A DNA stretch of 33,748 bases from a virus, in the IMG/VR virus record IMGVR_UViG_3300021963_003854, positions 1 through 33,748 of that record, one strand, 5' to 3'. This document shows, piece after piece, positions 8,083 to 33,413 of the stretch. Under the pieces are notes generated by a model. The model did not search any database, was not told where the DNA came from, and was given only the letters and a program-made list of their open reading frames with translations. Positions within the stretch are counted from its first letter, which is position 1; every line of letters begins with the position of its first letter. A program made the translations under genes and the position numbers.

Positions 8083-9258
8083 GTGTCAAAGCAATTAGCA
8101 ATCGGTTGGAATAGCAATGCACCTTGGGCTGCAACTGGTTATGGAACTCAAACAGCACAAGTAACTCAGCGACTAAAAGAACTGGGTCACAATGTAGCGA
8201 TCTTTAATAACTACGGTCTAGAGGGAAGCAACACAGACTGGAACGGAATGCCCGTTTATCAACGTGGCGCAGACCTCTACTCAAATGACGTAGTACCTGC
8301 TCACATGCACGATTGGACTTCACGCCACCCTAAACAGGGTCACATTCTTTTTACTCTTTATGACGTATGGGTATTTAAAGGCCCTAGATGGGCTGACTGG
8401 AATGTTGCTAGTTGGGTTCCCATTGACCACATCCCTGCACCGCCAGAAGTAACCAAGTGGTTGCGACAAGATTTTGTAACTCCTATTGCTATGAGCCAGT
8501 ACGGGCAAACAATGATTGAGAACGTAGGCATTGAATCCCTTTATGTGCCACACGGCATCGAGTCAGTCTTTAAGCCAATGAAACGCCATAAGGGAACTAC
8601 CGGCAGAGATTACATTGGAGTTGGCGAGGACAAGTTTGTTGTCGGTATGAACGCAGCCAACAAAGGCGTAAGCCCTAACCGCAAAGCATTTGGTGAGAAC
8701 ATCTTGGCGTTCTCTATGTTTGCTCAGATGCACGATGACGTAGTTCTTTATCTGCACACAGATCAGATGGGCGCACTAGGTGGAATCAAACTGATGCAGT
8801 TGCTTCAATCCTGTGGAGTGCCAGAGGACAAGTTTAAGTTCGTTGATCCTTACGTTTACCGCACCGGGATTGACCAGCAGACTCTAGCCACGATCTATAC
8901 GGCGATGGATGTTCTGCTTGCCACTTCATACGGCGAGGGCTTTGGTATTCCTACTGTCGAAGCGCAAGCCTGTGGCACACCTGTAATCATTAGCGACTTT
9001 GCAGCTTCAACGGAGCTACTAGGTGACGGCTGGCTAATTGACGGCCAACCGCTTTGGGATGCACCGCAATCTAGTTGGTTCCACATGCCTAGCGTTCCTG
9101 CAATCGTGGATGCCCTAGAGCAGGCGTATCAGCGTGGTCGTGGCAGATCAGAAAAGGCACAAGAGTTTGCCAAGGCGTATAACGCCGATACCGTGTTTGA
9201 GGAGCATTGGAAGCCTGCACTAAAGGTGCTGGAAGCCAAAGCCCTAGAACGGATGTAG
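8083..9258 (+). CDS. Glycosyltransferase, GT-B fold, family 4-like
   Basis: A 391-aa protein starting at GTG 8083 behind AAAGGA. N-terminal half: 'GWNSNAPWAATGYGTQTA...RLKELGHNV', the typical GT-B opening with a Gly-rich acceptor-side loop. C-terminal half: 'VGMNAANKG', then 'MDVLLATSYGEGFGIPTVEAQACGTPVI', containing the E-x7-E motif that binds the nucleotide-sugar donor in GT4-type retaining enzymes. It probably transfers a sugar to a phage or host surface acceptor in the cytoplasm. First of four sugar genes spaced by -4 to +3 nt, downstream of a strong terminator, so a separate promoter between 8021 and 8070 is expected. Confidence 0.85.
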   Translation: MSKQLAIGWNSNAPWAATGYGTQTAQVTQRLKELGHNVAIFNNYGLEGSNTDWNGMPVYQRGADLYSNDVVPAHMHDWTSRHPKQGHILFTLYDVWVFKGPRWADWNVASWVPIDHIPAPPEVTKWLRQDFVTPIAMSQYGQTMIENVGIESLYVPHGIESVFKPMKRHKGTTGRDYIGVGEDKFVVGMNAANKGVSPNRKAFGENILAFSMFAQMHDDVVLYLHTDQMGALGGIKLMQLLQSCGVPEDKFKFVDPYVYRTGIDQQTLATIYTAMDVLLATSYGEGFGIPTVEAQACGTPVIISDFAASTELLGDGWLIDGQPLWDAPQSSWFHMPSVPAIVDALEQAYQRGRGRSEKAQEFAKAYNADTVFEEHWKPALKVLEAKALERM

Positions 9259-9261
9259 AGC

Positions 9262-10065
9262 GTGAAAATCGGCTGGTACACACATCACACCGAGAATACG
9301 CAGAGCGTTCTTGTGCGTTCGCCTGTGAGCCAGCAAGGGCTATTCACGGGGCAGTTCGCAGGTGGGGCTGAAATGTCAGACTACGAATACCGCTTGCAAG
9401 CACCTCTAGACTACGAGATTGAGATTGTCACCCCATACACATTCGATACACACGACATACACCAATTCGATTCAGTCATAGTTACGGGTACAGATGCGTT
9501 CACAGATGCGCAGTTATACAGACTGGCTGAGTATGACCCGTTCGTATTTGTGCATCACTTACAAACTCCACGCGCAGGGCTTAATGCTTTGATTCGTGGC
9601 TCTCGCTTATTCGTAACCCATACCCCGGCGCACATGCGCAGAGAATTGGCTTGGAGTAAGCCACGCAAGACTGCGCAGGTTCTAAGTTATTTCGACACGA
9701 GCAAGTGTCACGATCACATGGACAAACAACCTTACGCATTGTGGGCTGCTAGGAATCACCCCTTAAAAGGTCAGCTACGCGCTCACGCTTGGGCAGCTCA
9801 GGCAGGCTACGAGTTCAAAGCTCTTACAGATGTACCGCGTGAACAAGTGCTAGATGCAATGGCAAGGGTGGAATGGTTTGTGCATTTGCCGTTAGCCTTT
9901 GAGTCAGAATGTCGCGCAGTAATGGAAGCGGTGCTTTCAGGTTGCAGGATTCACACGAACGAGAACGTAGGAATTACTAGCGTTGAAGATTGGCACGATG
10001 CAGATGCATTGCGCCACATGGTAGATAAGGCAGGCGATACATTTTGGAAACTGGTGCAGCAATGA
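9262..10065 (+). CDS. Putative glycosyltransferase (GT-B-like, divergent)
   Basis: A 267-aa protein starting at GTG 9262, 3 nt after the previous stop. The start 'MKIGWYTHHTENT' followed by 'GGAEMSDYEYRLQAP' resembles the N-terminal Rossmann half of GT-B enzymes; 'FDSVIVTGTDAF' and 'FVTHTPAHMRREL' continue it. The C-terminal part, 'VEWFVHLPLAFESECRAVMEA' and 'VLSGCRIHTNENVG', is the degenerate donor-binding half, where E...E spacing is retained. It is shorter than usual (about 350 residues). Next gene overlaps by ATGA. Confidence 0.65.
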   Translation: MKIGWYTHHTENTQSVLVRSPVSQQGLFTGQFAGGAEMSDYEYRLQAPLDYEIEIVTPYTFDTHDIHQFDSVIVTGTDAFTDAQLYRLAEYDPFVFVHHLQTPRAGLNALIRGSRLFVTHTPAHMRRELAWSKPRKTAQVLSYFDTSKCHDHMDKQPYALWAARNHPLKGQLRAHAWAAQAGYEFKALTDVPREQVLDAMARVEWFVHLPLAFESECRAVMEAVLSGCRIHTNENVGITSVEDWHDADALRHMVDKAGDTFWKLVQQ

Positions 10066-10736
10066 GAATGCTTACAATCATTCCGACAAGAGGGCGCAAC
10101 GATAACGCCATTAGATTATTTGAAGCCATTAACGCAACGGCAGACTTTACAGAAGTGGTCTTTGCCATAGATGCAGATGATGTTAAAACCTACAATGGCT
10201 TGATGGCAGAAACTGCTGGACTAGATAACGTCAAGGTCTGCATTGCCAACCGTATGGGAATGAACGGCACTCTTAATCATTGGGCTTTATGGTTCTCACC
10301 TGACTATGACTACATCTGTTTTATGGGTGATGACCACCTACCGCGCACAGGTGGTTGGGACACGAAACTTGCAGAAGCTATTGGCACAGAGCCGGGCATT
10401 GCTTACGGAAACGATTTACTGCAAGGCGAGAATTTGCCAACTGCCGTAGTAATGTCTAGCAAGATCATTAGGGCTACTGGCTTTATGTCACCGCCAGCCT
10501 TAAAGCACTTGTTCCTAGATAACTACTGGCTTGCAATGGGTCACGCTTTAGAGAATGTGAACTATTTGCCAGATGTAGTAATTGAACACATGCACTACAC
10601 AAACGGCAAGGCAGCCCATGACGATAGATACGCAGCCGTAAATAACCCTGAAATGCACAACGGCGATCAGGCTATCTTTGCTGAATACCTAGCCACAGAA
10701 TTTAGTAATGACGTTGAGAACGTAAAGGCTTGGTAA
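10062..10736 (+). CDS. Putative glycosyltransferase, GT-A fold (family 2-like)
   Basis: A 224-aa protein. 'MLTIIPTRGRNDNAIRLFEAI' is the classic GT-A nucleotide-binding opening, followed by 'VVFAIDADD', 'NHWALWF' and 'YDYICFMGDDHLPRTGGWDTKL', where GDDH takes the place of the DxD metal/donor motif. Later 'ATGFMSPPALKHLFLDNYW' fits the acceptor part. ATG 10062 is chosen because it overlaps the upstream stop as ATGA and begins the beta strand. Acceptor and sugar are not known. Confidence 0.72.
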   Translation: MRMLTIIPTRGRNDNAIRLFEAINATADFTEVVFAIDADDVKTYNGLMAETAGLDNVKVCIANRMGMNGTLNHWALWFSPDYDYICFMGDDHLPRTGGWDTKLAEAIGTEPGIAYGNDLLQGENLPTAVVMSSKIIRATGFMSPPALKHLFLDNYWLAMGHALENVNYLPDVVIEHMHYTNGKAAHDDRYAAVNNPEMHNGDQAIFAEYLATEFSNDVENVKAW

Positions 10737-11596
10737 TGAAGATACTGATTACAGGTCACAAAGGATTCGTTGGCCGTAACTTTGTAAAGGCTTTGCCAGA
10801 TAGTGAGATTACAGGCATTGACTTAAAAGACGGCAACGATTGCAGGGACTTCTTTAAGACCAACACAGATCAGTTCGATCTAGTGATTCACCTAGCAGCC
10901 ATCGTTGGTGGTCGCGCAACTATCGAGGGTGAGCCACTATCGGTAGCAACTGACCTGTCAATAGATGCTGAGTTCTTTAATTGGGTGCAGAAAACAAAAC
11001 CCATAAATACGGTTTACTTTTCTAGCTCGGCTGCTTACCCAATAGACCTGCAAACTGGACACCATAGAAACCGACTAGCAGAGCATGACCTAAACCTAGA
11101 TGCGGTTAGGAATCCTGACCTGACTTATGGCTGGGCAAAACTTACTGGGGAATACTTGGCGCAATTTGTAAGTGATTCCAAGGTGTTCGTCTTTAGACCG
11201 TTCTCAGGTTATGGATCAGATCAAGATGCTGATTATCCGTTTCCTAGTTTTATTGACCGCGCTCTAGCCAAGGCAGACCCGTTTGACATTTGGGGCGATG
11301 GCGAGCAGGTGCGTGACTTCATCCACATTGAGGACATAGTTCAGGCTGTTCTCTGGCACGTTCAGACTGGGTACACAGGCACGTTCAATCTATGCTCAGG
11401 CTTTGCCACTAGCTTTAATGACCTAGCAGAAATGGTCTGCGAGGAAGCAGGCTACAAGCCCGTGTTTAATCACATACGTTCAGCACCTACTGGGGTTATG
11501 TATCGCGTTGGTGATTCGCATTTATCGCACCAGTATTTCATTCCGCAGATTACTTTGCGTGAGGGAATTCGTAGGGCATTGGCAGAACGCAAGTAG
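10736..11596 (+). CDS. NAD(P)-dependent sugar-nucleotide epimerase/dehydratase (extended SDR)
   Basis: A 286-aa protein with the Rossmann motif G-x2-G-x2-G at the N-terminus (TGHKGFVG, G7/G10/G13), 'VIHLAAIVGG', 'VYFSSSAAYP' with the catalytic Ser, and Y131-x3-K135 in 'LTYGWAKLTGE'; 'VFRPFSGYG', 'IWGDGEQVRDFIHIEDIV' and 'GTFNLCSG' complete the pattern. It resembles GDP-L-fucose synthase/UDP-glucose 4-epimerase-type enzymes and probably makes the donor used by the three transferases upstream. Start ATG 10736 overlaps the preceding TAA. Confidence 0.85.
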   Translation: MKILITGHKGFVGRNFVKALPDSEITGIDLKDGNDCRDFFKTNTDQFDLVIHLAAIVGGRATIEGEPLSVATDLSIDAEFFNWVQKTKPINTVYFSSSAAYPIDLQTGHHRNRLAEHDLNLDAVRNPDLTYGWAKLTGEYLAQFVSDSKVFVFRPFSGYGSDQDADYPFPSFIDRALAKADPFDIWGDGEQVRDFIHIEDIVQAVLWHVQTGYTGTFNLCSGFATSFNDLAEMVCEEAGYKPVFNHIRSAPTGVMYRVGDSHLSHQYFIPQITLREGIRRALAERK

Positions 11597-13061: not shown

Positions 13062-13313
13062 ATGAAGATCAACCTGCGCGTAACTTTTAACGACAAGACA
13101 GAACACCAAGTAACGGCTACTGCTCGTGACCTTGTTGCCTTTGAAGATAAGTTCACTAAATCAGTAACATCGCTAGAAAGTAATTTCCGCATAACTGACA
13201 TTCTTTGGATTGCGTGGCATTACCTGAAACGCACAGAAACAACAAAACTAGAGTTTGAAGAATGGTGCGACACAGTAGATGAAATTGAAGCGAGTGATAC
13301 AGACCCAAAATAA
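13062..13313 (+). CDS. Tail assembly chaperone, short form (gpG-like)
   Basis: An 83-aa acidic helical protein directly after the tail tube gene and before the tape measure region. 'ARDLVAFEDKFTKSVTSL' and 'ITDILWIAWHYLKRT' are typical of siphophage gpG-like chaperones, which bind the tape measure and recruit tube subunits. The zero-frame stop TAA 13311-13313 follows immediately after a slippery heptamer, so the same mRNA should also give a longer form. Confidence 0.85.
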   Translation: MKINLRVTFNDKTEHQVTATARDLVAFEDKFTKSVTSLESNFRITDILWIAWHYLKRTETTKLEFEEWCDTVDEIEASDTDPK

Positions 13314-13459
13314 CTGGGTTGGGTGACTCATCCCAACATTGGTATTTGGCTTATCTATCCGTTGAAACTGGTATTGCTCCATCAGTTCTAATGGAAGAAT
13401 CTGAACGCATGCTTTATACAATGGGAATGTATCTGCGCCATAAACATAGTCAGGGATAG
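13062..13459 (+). CDS. Tail assembly chaperone, long form made by -1 frameshift (gpGT-like)
   Basis: CCCAAAA at 13304-13310 is set in frame as C-CCA-AAA, an X-XXY-YYZ slippery heptamer, followed at once by TAA. A -1 slip gives ATA at 13310 and an open frame of 49 codons to TAG 13457-13459. The extension contains 'HWYLAYLSVETGIAPSVLME' and ends 'MGMYLRHKHSQG', the usual G-T fusion domain look, for a fusion of about 132 aa. The -1 frame has no good start of its own, so it would otherwise be an unexplained gap between genes. A downstream pairing GGGTTGGGTGA with TCATCCCAAC (13316-13336) could stimulate slipping. Confidence 0.85.
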
Positions 13460-13461
13460 CA

Positions 13462-13980
13462 ATGGCAAAGACTCCGTATGCAAGTGGTCGCGCTGGTAGC
13501 GCATCTGTTGAAATTCAAGTTATAGGTTTGTACCCGTTTCTTAAACGTGCAGCAGCAGCTGACCCATTGTTTAATAAAGAGATTCGCGCAGCATCCGTTA
13601 AGTTGATTGGGCAGGTTGTGACTAATGTTCAATCAGCAGCAGCAAGCGCACCTAATCGCCGGCAAGCAATCGAATCTGCAAAGGGCTTTAGAGCTAGACC
13701 AGACCGTGTGCCAGTAATCAAATTAAACGGTTCTGCCAATTTCGTATCTCAAAGCCGACCTAACAGAAAGCGCAAGAAAAAGGTCACTAGGGGTGACGTA
13801 TTCTTTGGCTCTGAATTTGGCTCTAACAAGCTAAAGCAATTCCCACCTAGATCAGCCAGTTTCTTTGGCGGTAACAGGGGCTATTACTTCTGGCCTACTA
13901 TTGAGCGAATGGCTGGGGATATTAGCAAAGAATACCTAAATGCCCTTGATTCCATTACAAATAAACTCAAGCATTTGTAG
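13462..13980 (+). CDS. Putative HK97 gp10-like minor virion/tail protein
   Basis: A 172-aa basic protein. An N-terminal helical part is followed by 'FVSQSRPNRKRKKKVTRGDV' and then 'FFGSEFGSNKLKQFPPR', 'GYYFWPTIERM', a pattern seen in gp10/tail-completion-like proteins of actinophages. The usual gp10 place is before the tail tube, so the location after the chaperone is a shuffled order. It starts 2 nt after the frameshifted chaperone stop. Function is inferred from pattern and context only. Confidence 0.55.
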   Translation: MAKTPYASGRAGSASVEIQVIGLYPFLKRAAAADPLFNKEIRAASVKLIGQVVTNVQSAAASAPNRRQAIESAKGFRARPDRVPVIKLNGSANFVSQSRPNRKRKKKVTRGDVFFGSEFGSNKLKQFPPRSASFFGGNRGYYFWPTIERMAGDISKEYLNALDSITNKLKHL

Positions 13981-14009
13981 TAGACAGACCGTATAACAAA
14001 TGCTAGAGT
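13981..14009 (+). promoter_or_regulatory. Promoter for the primase-like gene, probably leaderless
   Basis: TAGACA (13981-13986), a 17-nt spacer and TAGAGT (14004-14009) make a good sigma-70-type pair, with the -10 ending 7 nt before the ATG at 14017. A second -10-like TATAAC is at 13992-13997. No ribosome site precedes the ATG, which agrees with a leaderless mRNA. Confidence 0.6.
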
Positions 14010-14016
14010 CTGACCT

Positions 14017-14742
14017 ATGTACGCAGTTAAATGGTGGTCAGTCAAGGACAACAGGCCAAAGCCATACGCAGATGATTGGGCTAGCTTTGTAAGCCTGCTC
14101 TCGCATCACGCTGAACGTGAGGACAAATACAAGGGGCATCTATACAGCCCTGTGACCTACGTTGAGAACGGCTTTCGCGGTAACAAGAACGTAGTTGCTA
14201 TCAACGCATTCGTTGCTGACCTAGACGGCGAAGCCCTAGATGACACCTTAAAGAAACTAGATGGCTATGAATACATCATTTACACCACACACAGCCACAG
14301 CCTTGATGAGCAACATTGGCACATAGTTATTCCTTTCTGCGATCCAGTTCCTAGTCACGAGTGGTACTCAGTCTGGAAGCAGATGCACGAGTTCCTAGAC
14401 ATTGTTGGCGATCCACAGACTAGCGATCCAGCCCGTATCTTCTTTGCACCTCAACACGCACCGGGTGCAGAGTTTGAAACCTTGCGCGGATACGGCGAGA
14501 TCATGCAAGCCCCAGAATTTAGATACTCAGATAGACCGCCTGTATCACTAACTAAGCGTGATCCTCAAAGGACAACTAGCAACTGGGAATGCAGATGCAC
14601 ACTCACCAAGGTATGCACCAAATGTGAAATAGAATTTAAGGACATTGACTTATCTAGGTACAATGGAATGAGTCAAAAGGAAATACGGTCAGATATACGC
14701 CGTGAGTTTCTAGAGTTAATGGCAGGTGCTTCTGCCACTTAG
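14017..14742 (+). CDS. Archaeo-eukaryotic primase-like (PrimPol/RepB-primase type) protein within the tail cluster
   Basis: A 241-aa protein with the AEP order of motifs: a DxD in 'VADLDG' (D68, D70), 'IIYTTHSH' with His92/His94, 'HWHIVIPF' (about 100-107) and an Arg in 'DPARIFFAP' (R140). After the catalytic core comes a C-x-C-x5-C-x2-C cluster (C192, C194, C200, C203) that may bind zinc, then a helical tail with 'IRSDIRREFLELM'. Such proteins make primers for DNA synthesis or start replication. It interrupts the virion genes between the gp10-like and tape measure genes and has its own promoter, the signature of a separately acquired and separately timed gene. Family assignment by motif only. 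Confidence 0.68.
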   Translation: MYAVKWWSVKDNRPKPYADDWASFVSLLSHHAEREDKYKGHLYSPVTYVENGFRGNKNVVAINAFVADLDGEALDDTLKKLDGYEYIIYTTHSHSLDEQHWHIVIPFCDPVPSHEWYSVWKQMHEFLDIVGDPQTSDPARIFFAPQHAPGAEFETLRGYGEIMQAPEFRYSDRPPVSLTKRDPQRTTSNWECRCTLTKVCTKCEIEFKDIDLSRYNGMSQKEIRSDIRREFLELMAGASAT

Positions 14743-14750
14743 GAGTCTTG

Positions 14751-16652
14751 GTGGCAATAAGTTCAGGCAGATCATTTGAAGTTAAATTCACAGGTGATAC
14801 TTCCAACCTAACTAAGTCAATGAAGAACTTAGAAAATGACGGAAGAAAATTAGGCGATTCTTTATCTGGTCAATCAAGCATTCTAAAAACTGGTCTTGGC
14901 GTATTCACAGGTAACTTGATAACTGGTGCATCCGCAGCCATAGCTGGCGCGGTTAGTTCCGCAGTTGCAGCAGCATCTGAGTATCAGACTCTAGGAAACA
15001 AAACCGCAGCCGTCTTAAAGTCCACAGGCAACACCGCGAACACAAGCGTTAAGGGAATCCAGACTCTAGCTTCTAATCTTGAAACCTTGTCAGGCGTTGA
15101 TGAAGCCTTAATCATTAACAGCCAAAACGTATTAGCCACGTTTACCAAAGTCAAGAATGGTATTGGTAAAGGCAACGATGTATTTGATCAAGGTGCTAAG
15201 GCAGCTTTGAATATGTCTAGTGCGCTTGGAAGCGATTTACAAGGCGCGACTATTCAAATTGGTAAGGCGTTAAATGATCCAATTAAGGGAATAACTGCTT
15301 TAAGTCGTGCTGGAGTTTCGTTTACTCAGGAACAGAAAAATCAGATTAAAGCAATGGCTGCTTCTGGTGATGTTATGGGAGCGCAAAAACTTATCCTTGC
15401 TGAATTGAACACAGAATTCGGTGGAGCAGCAGAAGCAGCAGGTAAGGGTTTCGCTGGCTCTATGGCGCGGATGAAAGACAGCGTTAGTGATGCAACCCGT
15501 AATATTGCAATGGCGTTCTTGCCAACTCTTGCTGATTTAGCTGATGCAATTAGTTCATTAGTCAGAGGTGACTTCACAGCCTTTGCAGATAAGATGCGTG
15601 ACATTGGTGGCAACATCGCAGACTTCGCTAGAACCGCATCAGACAAAATTAGAGATGCATTGCCAAAGATTCAAGAACAATTACTTAAATGGTCAGGTGC
15701 TTTTGCAAATTGGTTGATTGAAGCATTGCCTAAGTTTGCTGCTGCGTATGTTGAATTTCAAGCATTTGTCTTAGGCAAGATAGGTGATGCAATCCCAGAA
15801 ATAACTGCAAAGTTTCAGGGTTGGGTTATGGCATTCTCTGACTGGATGGGTAATGTCTATCCAGAGTTTGCACTTCAATTTGCTGACTTGATCGTAAAGA
15901 TTTCAAATAGGATTACCGCAGCATTGCCTGAGTTCCTAGAGAAACTTAAAGCGTGGCAAAAGGGTTTCAGCGATTGGGTTCCCGGTGCTGTATCTAACTT
16001 GCTTCACAACTTGTCTAAGCTCGGTGATCGTCTAACTGAATGGATAGATGCCAACGGCGCAACTTTAGTTTCTAATCTTGTGCAATGGGCCATTGCCTTT
16101 GCAGAGTTTGTTATCAAATCTATTCCGGGAATGCTAGTCAATCTTGCAAAACTGATTGGTGTTATTGGTCATTGGATTATTACCGATGGCATACCGGGCT
16201 TATTGAGGTTCACACAAAGTCTTGGTAAAGCTATTCTTGAGGGCATCTGGGATGGACTATCAACTGCTGCTGGTAACTTTGTGACTAAGTTCAAAAAGTG
16301 GATTAAAGAAAATCTAGTTGATGTAATTAAAAACGTTTTAGGTATTTCATCACCATCTAAAGTCTTTGCTGAGATGGGCGCAAATACCGTTCAAGGGTTT
16401 ATCAAGGGCATAGATGGAATGTCTGGCAACTTGCAAAGCACAATGTCTGGGTTGGGCGTAGATTCAACGATTGCCTTTGCTAATGAAGCAGGCGTGGCAA
16501 GTGTTGGTTCAGGTTCAAGAGCAGGTGGAAACACAATCAACCTAACCGTAAATGCAGGTATGGGCGCAGACGGCGCGGTGATAGGTCGTGAGATTGTAGA
16601 TGCAATTAAGAGATATGAACGTGCTAGTGGCCCGGTCTTTGCGAGCGCGTAA
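14751..16652 (+). CDS. Tape measure protein
   Basis: A 633-aa protein that sets tail length; at about 0.15 nm per residue the tail should be near 95 nm. The N-terminus has 'SFEVKFTGDTSNLTKSMKNL', followed by an Ala/Gly-rich hydrophobic stretch (about 45-75). 'AGVSFTQEQKNQIKAMAASG' and 'GSMARMKDSVSDATRNIAMAF' (one residue beyond each omitted) are typical of TMPs. The middle (about 300-530) has Trp-rich helical repeats of the kind 'F..W..AF..W....P', and the end carries 'ISSPSKVFAEMG'. GTG 14751 is chosen over TTG 14748 because AGGAG (14741-14745) is then 5 nt away. Confidence 0.93.
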   Translation: MAISSGRSFEVKFTGDTSNLTKSMKNLENDGRKLGDSLSGQSSILKTGLGVFTGNLITGASAAIAGAVSSAVAAASEYQTLGNKTAAVLKSTGNTANTSVKGIQTLASNLETLSGVDEALIINSQNVLATFTKVKNGIGKGNDVFDQGAKAALNMSSALGSDLQGATIQIGKALNDPIKGITALSRAGVSFTQEQKNQIKAMAASGDVMGAQKLILAELNTEFGGAAEAAGKGFAGSMARMKDSVSDATRNIAMAFLPTLADLADAISSLVRGDFTAFADKMRDIGGNIADFARTASDKIRDALPKIQEQLLKWSGAFANWLIEALPKFAAAYVEFQAFVLGKIGDAIPEITAKFQGWVMAFSDWMGNVYPEFALQFADLIVKISNRITAALPEFLEKLKAWQKGFSDWVPGAVSNLLHNLSKLGDRLTEWIDANGATLVSNLVQWAIAFAEFVIKSIPGMLVNLAKLIGVIGHWIITDGIPGLLRFTQSLGKAILEGIWDGLSTAAGNFVTKFKKWIKENLVDVIKNVLGISSPSKVFAEMGANTVQGFIKGIDGMSGNLQSTMSGLGVDSTIAFANEAGVASVGSGSRAGGNTINLTVNAGMGADGAVIGREIVDAIKRYERASGPVFASA

Positions 16653-24480: not shown

Positions 24481-24505
24481 GCATTTGTCATACAGGTCGT
24501 ATAAC
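24478..24505 (+). promoter_or_regulatory. Promoter for the first methyltransferase gene, probably leaderless
   Basis: TTTGCA (24478-24483), 16-nt spacer, TATAAC (24500-24505). The ATG at 24514 is 8 nt after the -10 and lacks a ribosome site, so the mRNA should start on or beside the initiation codon. Confidence 0.55.
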
Positions 24506-24513
24506 GTCTGAGT

Positions 24514-25608
24514 ATGAGTAAAGCAAAAATAATTATTGGGGATGTTAGAACTGCAATGCAGTCAATCCCAGATCAGTCAATTCAAACCTGCGTAACATCA
24601 CCGCCCTACTGGGGACTGCGTGACTATGGCACTGGTACATGGTCAGGTGGTGACAGTGAATGTAGTCATAAAAGAGATAGCAAGTATTCAGATAAGACAA
24701 TTACTGGTCACAAGAATCCTGCCATTGGCGGTGTGGGTGATGCTATCTATAAAAGCGTTTGTGAACGTTGTGGAGCTACCCGTGAAGATGAGCAACTAGG
24801 TCTAGAGGAAACACCACAGCAGTATGTAGATCAGATGGTTGAAGTCTTTAGGGAAGTCTGGCGCGTACTAAAAGATGACGGAACACTTTGGCTAAACATT
24901 GGTGATAGTTATGCAGGCTCAGGTAAAGGGCCGGCTGGAAACTTAGGCGCGACACATAATGAACGTCACATGGAACATAAGCATTCAGCGATTGTGCCTG
25001 ACGGTCTAAAGCCAAAAGACTTGGTTGGTATTCCTTGGCGTTTAGCTTTTGCATTGCAAGCTGACGGTTGGTATTTAAGGCAGGACATTATCTGGGCTAA
25101 ACCAAATCCAATGCCTGAGTCAGTTACAGACAGATGCACCAAGTCACATGAGTACGTCTTTCTAATGTCTAAGTCACGGCAGTATTTTTATGACCATGAA
25201 GCTATTAAAGAACCTGTTGTGCAAGATTGGGGCAGTCGAGACAGAACCAATGGGAAATACCACAATGAGGGAACCGGATTAACTCCACATTCAGGTTTGA
25301 CCAAGACTTATGAAACTAGAAATAAGCGCGATGTCTGGAACGTTCCCACTAAGCCTTACAAGGGCGCACACTTTGCTGTAATGCCAGAAGCTCTTATTGA
25401 ACCTTGCATACTTGCTGGCTCATCTGTTGGCGATACGGTCTTTGATCCGTTCACTGGTTCTGGGACTGTTGGCATGGTTGCTCTTAGGCACAATAGAAAC
25501 TTTGTAGGTACTGAATTAAATCCAGACTATGCAGACTTAGCTGTTAATCGTATTTACAATGATGCACCATTACTAAATGAAATAGAACAGGAGTTGGCAA
25601 ATGGCTGA
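24514..25608 (+). CDS. Site-specific DNA methyltransferase, SPPY type (beta class)
   Basis: A 364-aa protein. Catalytic motif IV S29-P-P-Y32 ('TSPPYWGLRDYG') lies near the N-terminus and the AdoMet motif 'DPFTGSG' (311-317) near the C-terminus, the beta-class order. SPPY is more usual in N4-cytosine methylases, though N6-adenine cannot be excluded. A zinc-knuckle-like insert, C50-x-H52 ... C83-x2-C86, follows motif IV. No restriction endonuclease is next to it, so it is an orphan, probably masking phage DNA from host restriction. The RHH gene starts inside its 3' end. Confidence 0.9.
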   Translation: MSKAKIIIGDVRTAMQSIPDQSIQTCVTSPPYWGLRDYGTGTWSGGDSECSHKRDSKYSDKTITGHKNPAIGGVGDAIYKSVCERCGATREDEQLGLEETPQQYVDQMVEVFREVWRVLKDDGTLWLNIGDSYAGSGKGPAGNLGATHNERHMEHKHSAIVPDGLKPKDLVGIPWRLAFALQADGWYLRQDIIWAKPNPMPESVTDRCTKSHEYVFLMSKSRQYFYDHEAIKEPVVQDWGSRDRTNGKYHNEGTGLTPHSGLTKTYETRNKRDVWNVPTKPYKGAHFAVMPEALIEPCILAGSSVGDTVFDPFTGSGTVGMVALRHNRNFVGTELNPDYADLAVNRIYNDAPLLNEIEQELANG

Positions 25609-31609: not shown

Positions 31610-32850
31610 ACTACGACCTGCGCAATGGTGACTGTGTTGAGATTATGCGTAGCCTGCCAGCAAACAGCGTGGACTCGATTGTTACTGACCCACCGTATGA
31701 GCTTGGCTTTATGGGTAAGTCTTGGGATTCAACTGGTATTGCATACAGCGTAAAGATGTGGGATGAAGCACTTAGAGTCTTAAAGCCCGGCGGTCACTTG
31801 CTTGCCTTTAGTGGATCACGCACTTATCACCGTATGGCTTGCGCCATTGAAGATGCAGGCTTTGAGATACGCGATCAGATTATGTGGGTCTACGGTTCAG
31901 GGTTTCCAAAGTCAATGGATGTAAGCAAGGCAATAGACAAGCAAAGCAATGTTCATGTCGAAGTTATTGCAACTGGTAAAAGTGGCAAAACGGCTATTTG
32001 GAATGAACAAGGCGGTATGGGTAATTTCAACATAACTGCACCGACAACAGACAAAGCAAAGCAATGGGCAGGATGGGGAACAGCACTAAAGCCTGCACAT
32101 GAACCAATAGTCCTAGCTCGTAAGCCCTTGATAGGAACAGTTGCAACTAACGTAATCATTCATGGCACTGGCGCATTGAACATTGACGGGTCAAGGGTTG
32201 GGACTGAAATTCTTGTAAATCAACCGGGTGGCATTCCTAATGGAGCTAATCATTTTGTCAATTCATCGAAAGAATTAAATCGTGATAGACCAGCAATAAC
32301 TGTGCAAGGTCGTTGGCCTGCAAACTTTATACATGATGGTTCAGATGAAGTAGTTGAGTTGTTTCCTGAAACAAAGCCAAGCAAGGCAAATCCTAGAAAC
32401 AATAGTGACTTTAAGTCAGTATCTAAGGGTAAAGAAACAGCGCACACAACACTTGGTCACAACGATAACGGCGGTTCAGCAGCACGATTCTTTTACTGCG
32501 CGAAGGCGAGTAAGAAAGACCGCAATGAAGGACTAGATGGCTTTGCAGAGAAACGCCCTGATGAAAGAAGTGAAACTGGCATGGGTACTTTTACAGAAAA
32601 GGGAGTTGCTAAACAATCAAACCATCACCCAACCGTTAAGCCAATTGATCTAATGCGTTACCTAGTTAAGTTAGTAACACCACCTAACGGAACAGTCTTA
32701 GATCCATTTATGGGTTCAGGCTCAACAGGCAAGGCGGCAGTCTTAGAACACTTTAGTTTTATTGGCATAGACCAAAGCGCAGACTACCTAGAGATTGCAA
32801 CGGCTAGAATCAAACACGCGCAAGAACAGATAGAAGGCCGGTTGTTATGA
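31606..32850 (+). CDS. DNA methyltransferase, DPPY type (N6-adenine/N4-cytosine)
   Basis: A 414-aa protein. Motif IV D28-P-P-Y31 ('VTDPPYELGFMGKSWD') is N-terminal and the AdoMet motif 'LDPFMGSGSTGKAA' starts near residue 365, so this is a beta-type order; DPPY favours adenine-N6 methylation. A long middle region includes 'GRWPANFIHDGSDEVVELFP' and 'ARFFYCAKASKKDRNEGL', common in phage and mobile-element methylases. It is an orphan like the one at 24514 but clearly a different family member. Likely protects against host restriction. Confidence 0.92.
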   Translation: MNYDLRNGDCVEIMRSLPANSVDSIVTDPPYELGFMGKSWDSTGIAYSVKMWDEALRVLKPGGHLLAFSGSRTYHRMACAIEDAGFEIRDQIMWVYGSGFPKSMDVSKAIDKQSNVHVEVIATGKSGKTAIWNEQGGMGNFNITAPTTDKAKQWAGWGTALKPAHEPIVLARKPLIGTVATNVIIHGTGALNIDGSRVGTEILVNQPGGIPNGANHFVNSSKELNRDRPAITVQGRWPANFIHDGSDEVVELFPETKPSKANPRNNSDFKSVSKGKETAHTTLGHNDNGGSAARFFYCAKASKKDRNEGLDGFAEKRPDERSETGMGTFTEKGVAKQSNHHPTVKPIDLMRYLVKLVTPPNGTVLDPFMGSGSTGKAAVLEHFSFIGIDQSADYLEIATARIKHAQEQIEGRLL

Positions 32851-33413
32851 CAACGATCATCACTACAACAGGCAACAACTTCTGCACACTTACAGCAGAT
32901 CAAGGGATTACATCAGACCTAATACATCCCGACATGCCTAAGATCGTTCAACAAGATACTTGGCTTATCGGTGTAGCCGGGAGCGCAAGAGTCTGCGATC
33001 AGTTGCAGTATTCGATTGAATACCCTAAGCCACCAGTTGAAGTGGTTAAGTCTGGTGAATGGTTACGTTGGTTGGTTACTAAGGTGATTCCACTCATAGA
33101 TGACATGATCAAAGATAGTGAAATGGATGCAGAAGCCTTACTGATCACACACGGCAAAGCATTCCTAGTAAGCGAGAACCTAAGTGTGCTAACGGCTAAC
33201 CCTTACTGGGCTATCGGATCAGGGGCAGACCTAGCACTTGGGTCATTAGCTGATAGGCAATACGCACCAGACTGGCACAAGAACCACGACCTATCTGCGC
33301 TACGAGCTATGGAGTCTGCAAGTATGCACGATCCAAATACTAGGGGGGGCATAGATCAGTTTCGTTCGTATGCCACAGGAAAAGTAATCGCTAGAGCCAA
33401 TGGCATTCAATAA
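32847..33413 (+). CDS. Proteasome beta/HslV-like Ntn hydrolase
   Basis: A 188-aa protein overlapping the methyltransferase stop (ATGA). After removal of Met1 the N-terminus is Thr-Thr ('TTIITTTGNNF'), Asp is at position 17 ('TADQG') and Lys at 31 ('DMPKIV'), and 'TWLIGVAGSARVCDQL' follows, the order and near-spacing of Thr1/Asp17/Lys33 in HslV and proteasome beta subunits. 'YWAIGSGADLALGSL' matches the later conserved Gly-Ser-Gly loop. No partner ATPase is seen. It may be a self-assembling protease acting on host or phage proteins; the substrate is unknown. Confidence 0.78.
   Translation: MTTIITTTGNNFCTLTADQGITSDLIHPDMPKIVQQDTWLIGVAGSARVCDQLQYSIEYPKPPVEVVKSGEWLRWLVTKVIPLIDDMIKDSEMDAEALLITHGKAFLVSENLSVLTANPYWAIGSGADLALGSLADRQYAPDWHKNHDLSALRAMESASMHDPNTRGGIDQFRSYATGKVIARANGIQ

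Follow-up and report, generated by a model that had tools for sequence, protein, structure and literature searches.

Why does a gene related to primase-polymerases, with a promoter of its own, stand inside a tail operon directly before the tape-measure gene, and what would its product do there? The question is raised by the virus record IMGVR_UViG_3300021963_003854, all 33,748 bases of which (positions 1–33,748; G+C 0.464) were analysed and are called the window here. The answer favoured by the sequence comparisons, with a probability of about 0.5, is that the gene encodes an accessory, stand-alone AEP primase-polymerase in a self-promoted, moron-like cassette, and that the protein serves neither as main replicative primase nor as part of the tail.

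Genomic setting and relatives

The features of the locus are listed in Table 1. The host is probably an actinobacterium, because the window carries a WhiB gene and its terminase is most similar to the one of Pontimonas phage phiPsal1. Neither fused to the AEP protein nor adjacent to its gene was a helicase found with Pfam, PHROGs or among the neighbouring genes.

Table 1. Features of the AEP locus and its flanks (window coordinates; residue numbers refer to the AEP protein)
Feature	Position	Strand	Remarks
Upstream tail-operon gene	13462–13980	+	TAG stop at 13978–13980
Promoter and AEP gene together	13981–14742		
-35 hexamer, TAGACA	13981–13986	+	immediately follows the TAG stop; the exchanged cassette has its left edge here
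Conserved spacer element GTATAACA, possible operator	13991–13998	+	about 96% conserved
Extended -10, TGC TAGAGT	14001–14009	+	TAGAGT at 14004–14009
AEP primase-polymerase domain protein (predicted)	14017–14742	+	241 aa; ATG at 14017, stop ends at 14742
Motif I, D68-L-D70 (VADLDG)	14218–14226	+	invariant
Motif II region, Y89 to H102 (YTTHSHSLDEQHWH)	14281–14322	+	atypical; Y89 invariant
Motif III and Arg: D132, T135, R140	14410–14436	+	invariant
Cys cluster C192, C194, C200, C203	14590–14625	+	close clade only
Tape-measure gene	14748–16652	+	TMP_2; PHROG tape measure

Relatives of the gene fall into two clades. The close clade comprises 38 loci, 35 found in a first scan at 80–96% identity and three in a second, the most distant at 74%; the distant clade, of which 44 loci were examined, lies at about 41–44% identity. 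A scan of genome contigs yielded no relative, and a viral scan with a Vibrio AEP as query gave no match. Wherever a contig reaches far enough, the AEP gene of both clades has the same gene before it and the tape-measure gene after it, a count that leaves aside the chimeric contig L007. The position before the tape measure claimed in the original prediction is thus fixed in two clades, but the name gp10-like, which it had given to the upstream gene, is a label only, as that gene has no family match in Pfam, PHROGs or NCBIfam.

Family, predicted fold and conserved motifs

The 241-aa protein is matched by PHROG profiles of phage primases/helicases (phrog_9765, E 7.8e-20; phrog_256, 5.8e-8; phrog_2135, 1.5e-7), and no match was obtained in Pfam, NCBIfam or PADLOC. 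Searches of cultured phages with tblastn led to the AEP regions of primase/helicase proteins, none of which spans 80% of the protein. An AlphaFold2 model built from 54 sequences reached a moderate pLDDT of 72.9 and superseded a first model with a pLDDT of 60. Its top match in the PDB is the AEP domain of the cyanophage S-2L PrimPol (Foldseek E 4e-6; Z 8.1; rmsd 3.5 over 138 residues at 12% identity), and the next matches include a CRISPR-associated Prim-Pol (CAPP), RepB' and LigD polymerase domains at Z 5–6; HP0184, a protein of unknown function, ranks in between at Z 6.9, and the TM-scores of the fold search are low. Sequence searches of the PDB with a close-clade profile and with a mixed AEP profile found no AEP. 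As modelled, the protein has the AEP (RRM-like) catalytic fold and belongs to the AEP superfamily. The AEP-type assignment made at the outset is therefore upheld by both the phrog_9765 profile and the predicted fold, and in the comparison with primases that had been proposed as a check, AEP domains head the fold search.

The residues D68, D70, Y89, D132, T135 and R140 are invariant down to AEPs at 22–24% identity, D132 of motif III having been placed by sequence alignment. D68, D70, D132 and R140 occur in the same order as E85, D87, D146 and R157, the residues used by the S-2L PrimPol (PMC8065100). Motif II is atypical: its stretch reads YTTHSH...HWH, with more than one candidate for the His in the sxH of the AEP superfamily. 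H100-W-H102 is peculiar to the protein's own family, since position 100 is R, K or L and position 102 is R in the other aligned AEPs. Differences in motif II between AEP families are known (PMC5862659). Of the motifs originally named, the DxD and the Arg hold throughout, while the H-x-H is present but family-specific. The C-terminal Cys cluster was likewise seen correctly in the window, but it is not a defining feature of the family, because the distant clade lacks it. Within the close clade, dN/dS is about 0.10, which indicates purifying selection. The H-W-H also suggested a HUH-type Rep; the folds are related, but pMV158 RepB and circovirus Reps score no more than Z 3.9 versus 8.1 for the AEP, and this candidate was rejected.

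Promoters of the AEP gene

In the window, TAGACA, a 17-nt spacer, TAGAGT and a further 7 nt precede the ATG. A lone match to such a consensus is at chance level, with three promoter-like sites in 5.5 kb versus 8.9 expected, and the case for the promoter is made by its conservation across relatives. Among 22 distinct 36-nt upstream sequences of the close clade, TANNNT lies exactly at -13 to -8 in 20 and is slightly shifted in the other two; it is accompanied by a -35 box with at least four of six matches to TTGACA in 19, and by a preceding TG in 18. The key promoter positions are about 96% conserved versus 72.5% at the fourfold-degenerate sites of the AEP gene, with similar conservation in the spacer element and in a GTCTGA near the start. 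From this conservation, the promoter of the AEP gene is judged to be real. No Shine-Dalgarno-like sequence occurs in any of the 22 (0/22), and because of this, together with a TANNNT 7 nt before the ATG, the AEP mRNA is probably leaderless. TANNNT promoters whose transcripts begin right at the start codon are a common type in Mycobacterium tuberculosis (PMC3898074).

In the window, a TANNNT 6–9 nt before the start is found only at the genes beginning at 14017, 24514 and 31313, the last two of which belong to the non-structural half. As a separate observation, the DNA methyltransferase gene at 24514 has GTATAAC and GTCTGA before its ATG (24499–24514) and no Shine-Dalgarno sequence, an arrangement that resembles parts of the AEP promoter. 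Two other candidates were dropped: TATAAC as a -10 box, since the required -35 region is not conserved, and a second promoter copy in L007, since this contig is an inverted chimera in which the tail genes recur on the opposite strand.

In the distant clade, other promoter forms take the place of this one. At 32 loci, a promoter of the TTGCAT-16-TATCCT type, with small variants, is combined with an AGGAGG-like leader. In the other 12, a longer insert contains a small variable ORF together with an RHH_1 (ribbon-helix-helix) ORF, the stop of which overlaps the AEP start. Two TTGTCTTAC repeats, exactly 21 bp apart, flank a promoter-like stretch 340–500 bases before the AEP gene in L099, L117 and ten other distant-clade loci, with the small ORF and the RHH ORF after them, and may form an operator. 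Because one gene has three promoter forms, these arrangements argue that its separate transcription has been kept by selection. The claim of an own promoter is accordingly supported for the close clade and extended, in other forms, to the distant one.

Insertion and cassette exchange

Pontimonas phage phiPsal1 (MG835450) is the closest cultured phage, with 56% identity in the terminase and 57% in the major tail protein, and its structural genes follow the same order as in the window; it differs in having no AEP gene, and its gene 17 overlaps the tape-measure start. The phiPsal1 major tail protein led to 80 loci. In 53 of them the contig extends to a long ORF that was interpreted as the tape measure, and the AEP gene is absent from all of these phiPsal1-type tail operons (0/53).

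The edges of the inserted segment can be read from pairwise comparison. When the window is compared with L002, identity rises from 0.53 (13917–13976) to 0.88 (13977–14036); it is 1.00 over 14637–14756, falls from about 14757 and is 0.3–0.5 from 14817 on, which places the left edge at the -35 box and the right edge at the tape-measure start. Across 27 loci, the identities of the AEP gene correlate weakly with those of its flanks (0.36 and 0.31), whereas the correlation between the two flanks is 0.60. The reverse case is L024, in which the flanks are similar (0.88 and 0.85) and the AEP gene is different (0.78). Strong conservation of the AEP gene alone could give part of the exchange pattern of the L002 type, but not the case of L024. 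By these comparisons, the promoter and the AEP gene behave as one cassette that is swapped between related phages.

Two marks of a moron are present, namely an own promoter, as judged by sequence, and insertion between two genes that related phages have side by side. Two others are missing: the G+C of the AEP gene (0.472) is not unusual against the gene mean (0.464, sd 0.024), and no terminator-like site lies between the AEP gene and the tape-measure gene, into which it runs. For want of a terminator, the cassette is called moron-like only; with this qualification, the insertion originally proposed is supported by the absence of the gene from the phiPsal1-type operons and by the exchange of promoter and gene as a unit.

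Role of the AEP protein beside the replication modules

According to the preferred reading, two related groups of probably actinobacterial siphophages carry the promoter and AEP gene as a cassette immediately upstream of the tape-measure gene. Transcription from a host-type promoter with an extended -10 would yield a leaderless mRNA beginning at the ATG, and the AEP protein would be made apart from late tail transcription. It may then act in an accessory capacity beside the main replication system, making or extending primers on single-stranded phage DNA; possible tasks are repriming, gap filling and recombination-linked synthesis. Such primer synthesis or extension is putative, and is suggested by the conserved acidic residues and the AEP fold.

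The original prediction spoke of a replication function, and one reading is that this is the main replication primase of the phage, oddly placed and expressed early from its own promoter. Phage AEP domains are usually replicative, the promoter could permit early expression, and by phrog_9765 the close-clade genomes show no other phage primase; in 18 of 18 records, the profile has a single match, the gene in the tail operon. A replicative primase is encoded with or fused to a replicative helicase, however, which is not so for the AEP gene. Furthermore, a RepO-like protein, which would recruit host helicase and primase, is present in all six close-clade genomes checked, and phiPsal1, which has an annotated RepO, does without the AEP gene. 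The one near-complete distant-clade genome that was read, G007, has a second AEP besides the tail-operon gene: its early region encodes a separate Prim-Pol-helicase of 610 aa, in which the Prim-Pol is joined to a helicase-like AAA_25 domain (L121, 573–2405, minus strand). A replication function as main primase is therefore doubtful. Because the AEP gene is kept beside different replication modules, the evidence, which comes from this one distant-clade genome and from annotation, speaks for an accessory role.

It is similarly unlikely that this AEP-fold protein has a different job, catalytic or not, in counter-defence, host takeover or gene regulation. The independent promoter, the exchange as a cassette, the atypical motif II, and the RHH gene and small variable ORFs alongside it at 12 distant-clade loci would all suit such a job, but there is no PADLOC match, and neither R140 nor the metal-binding acidic residues vary, a constancy that would be needless for a non-catalytic role. 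A related and equally tentative idea is that of a single-domain AEP as an independently regulated accessory factor, serving counter-defence, host takeover or virion-delivered priming, that kept its place next to the tape-measure gene through a replacement of the entire replication module. It is very improbable that the protein is a component of the tail or virion, or is packaged and delivered with the DNA: a constant position next to the tape-measure gene, shared by two clades at about 43% identity, would fit, but both clades have separate promoters, the gene is missing from all 53 phiPsal1-type tail operons, and AEP distances are weakly tied to those of neighbouring genes.

The accessory primase-polymerase and its cassette are best described as known kinds combined anew: a primase-polymerase domain of the AEP type, carried by a cassette that is moron-like and has its own promoter. 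A gene for a nucleic-acid enzyme would be kept within a tail operon, as a self-promoted cassette, by phages with different replication modules. An active protein would be a compact primase-polymerase of a phage that stands alone and has no helicase, and the locus also provides a predicted leaderless phage promoter.

Comparison with known systems

The S-2L PrimPol (PDB 6zp9) shares the AEP fold, but it carries a PriCT-2 and a further C-terminal domain, in contrast to the single-domain protein here, and is the proposed polymerase of its phage (PMC8065100). Primases of the phrog_9765 type, such as those of Streptococcus phage Javan385 and Enterobacter phage EcP1, have a homologous AEP region, but are long, multi-domain and mostly annotated as primase/helicase, whereas here the AEP stands alone in a tail operon. 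Short stand-alone AEPs are also encoded by Vibrio phage 2.058.O (308 aa) and Phage C48C1 (314 aa), both outside tail operons, the former among helicase, recombination and P-loop genes. RepE/RepS and PrimHYQ are AEPs of mobile elements that, as here, lack a helicase; they carry PriCT-1 and HTH domains after the AEP (PMC5862659), none of which was recognised in the 241-aa protein. Searches of open-licence papers brought up no description of a tail operon with an AEP gene.

Other features of the window

Several other features of the window deserve mention. A tail-assembly chaperone pair at 13062–13459 has a likely -1 frameshift, with a slippery C CCA AAA (13304–13310) just before a TAA stop and a hairpin at 13318–13337; the extension in the -1 frame, to the stop at 13457–13459, is conserved, and L077 shows the same extension. 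The major capsid gene is separated from the head-tail adaptor genes by two glycosyltransferase genes and a nucleotide-sugar epimerase gene (8083–11596). A gene for a proteasome/HslV-like peptidase (32847–33413) directly follows the second DNA methyltransferase gene.
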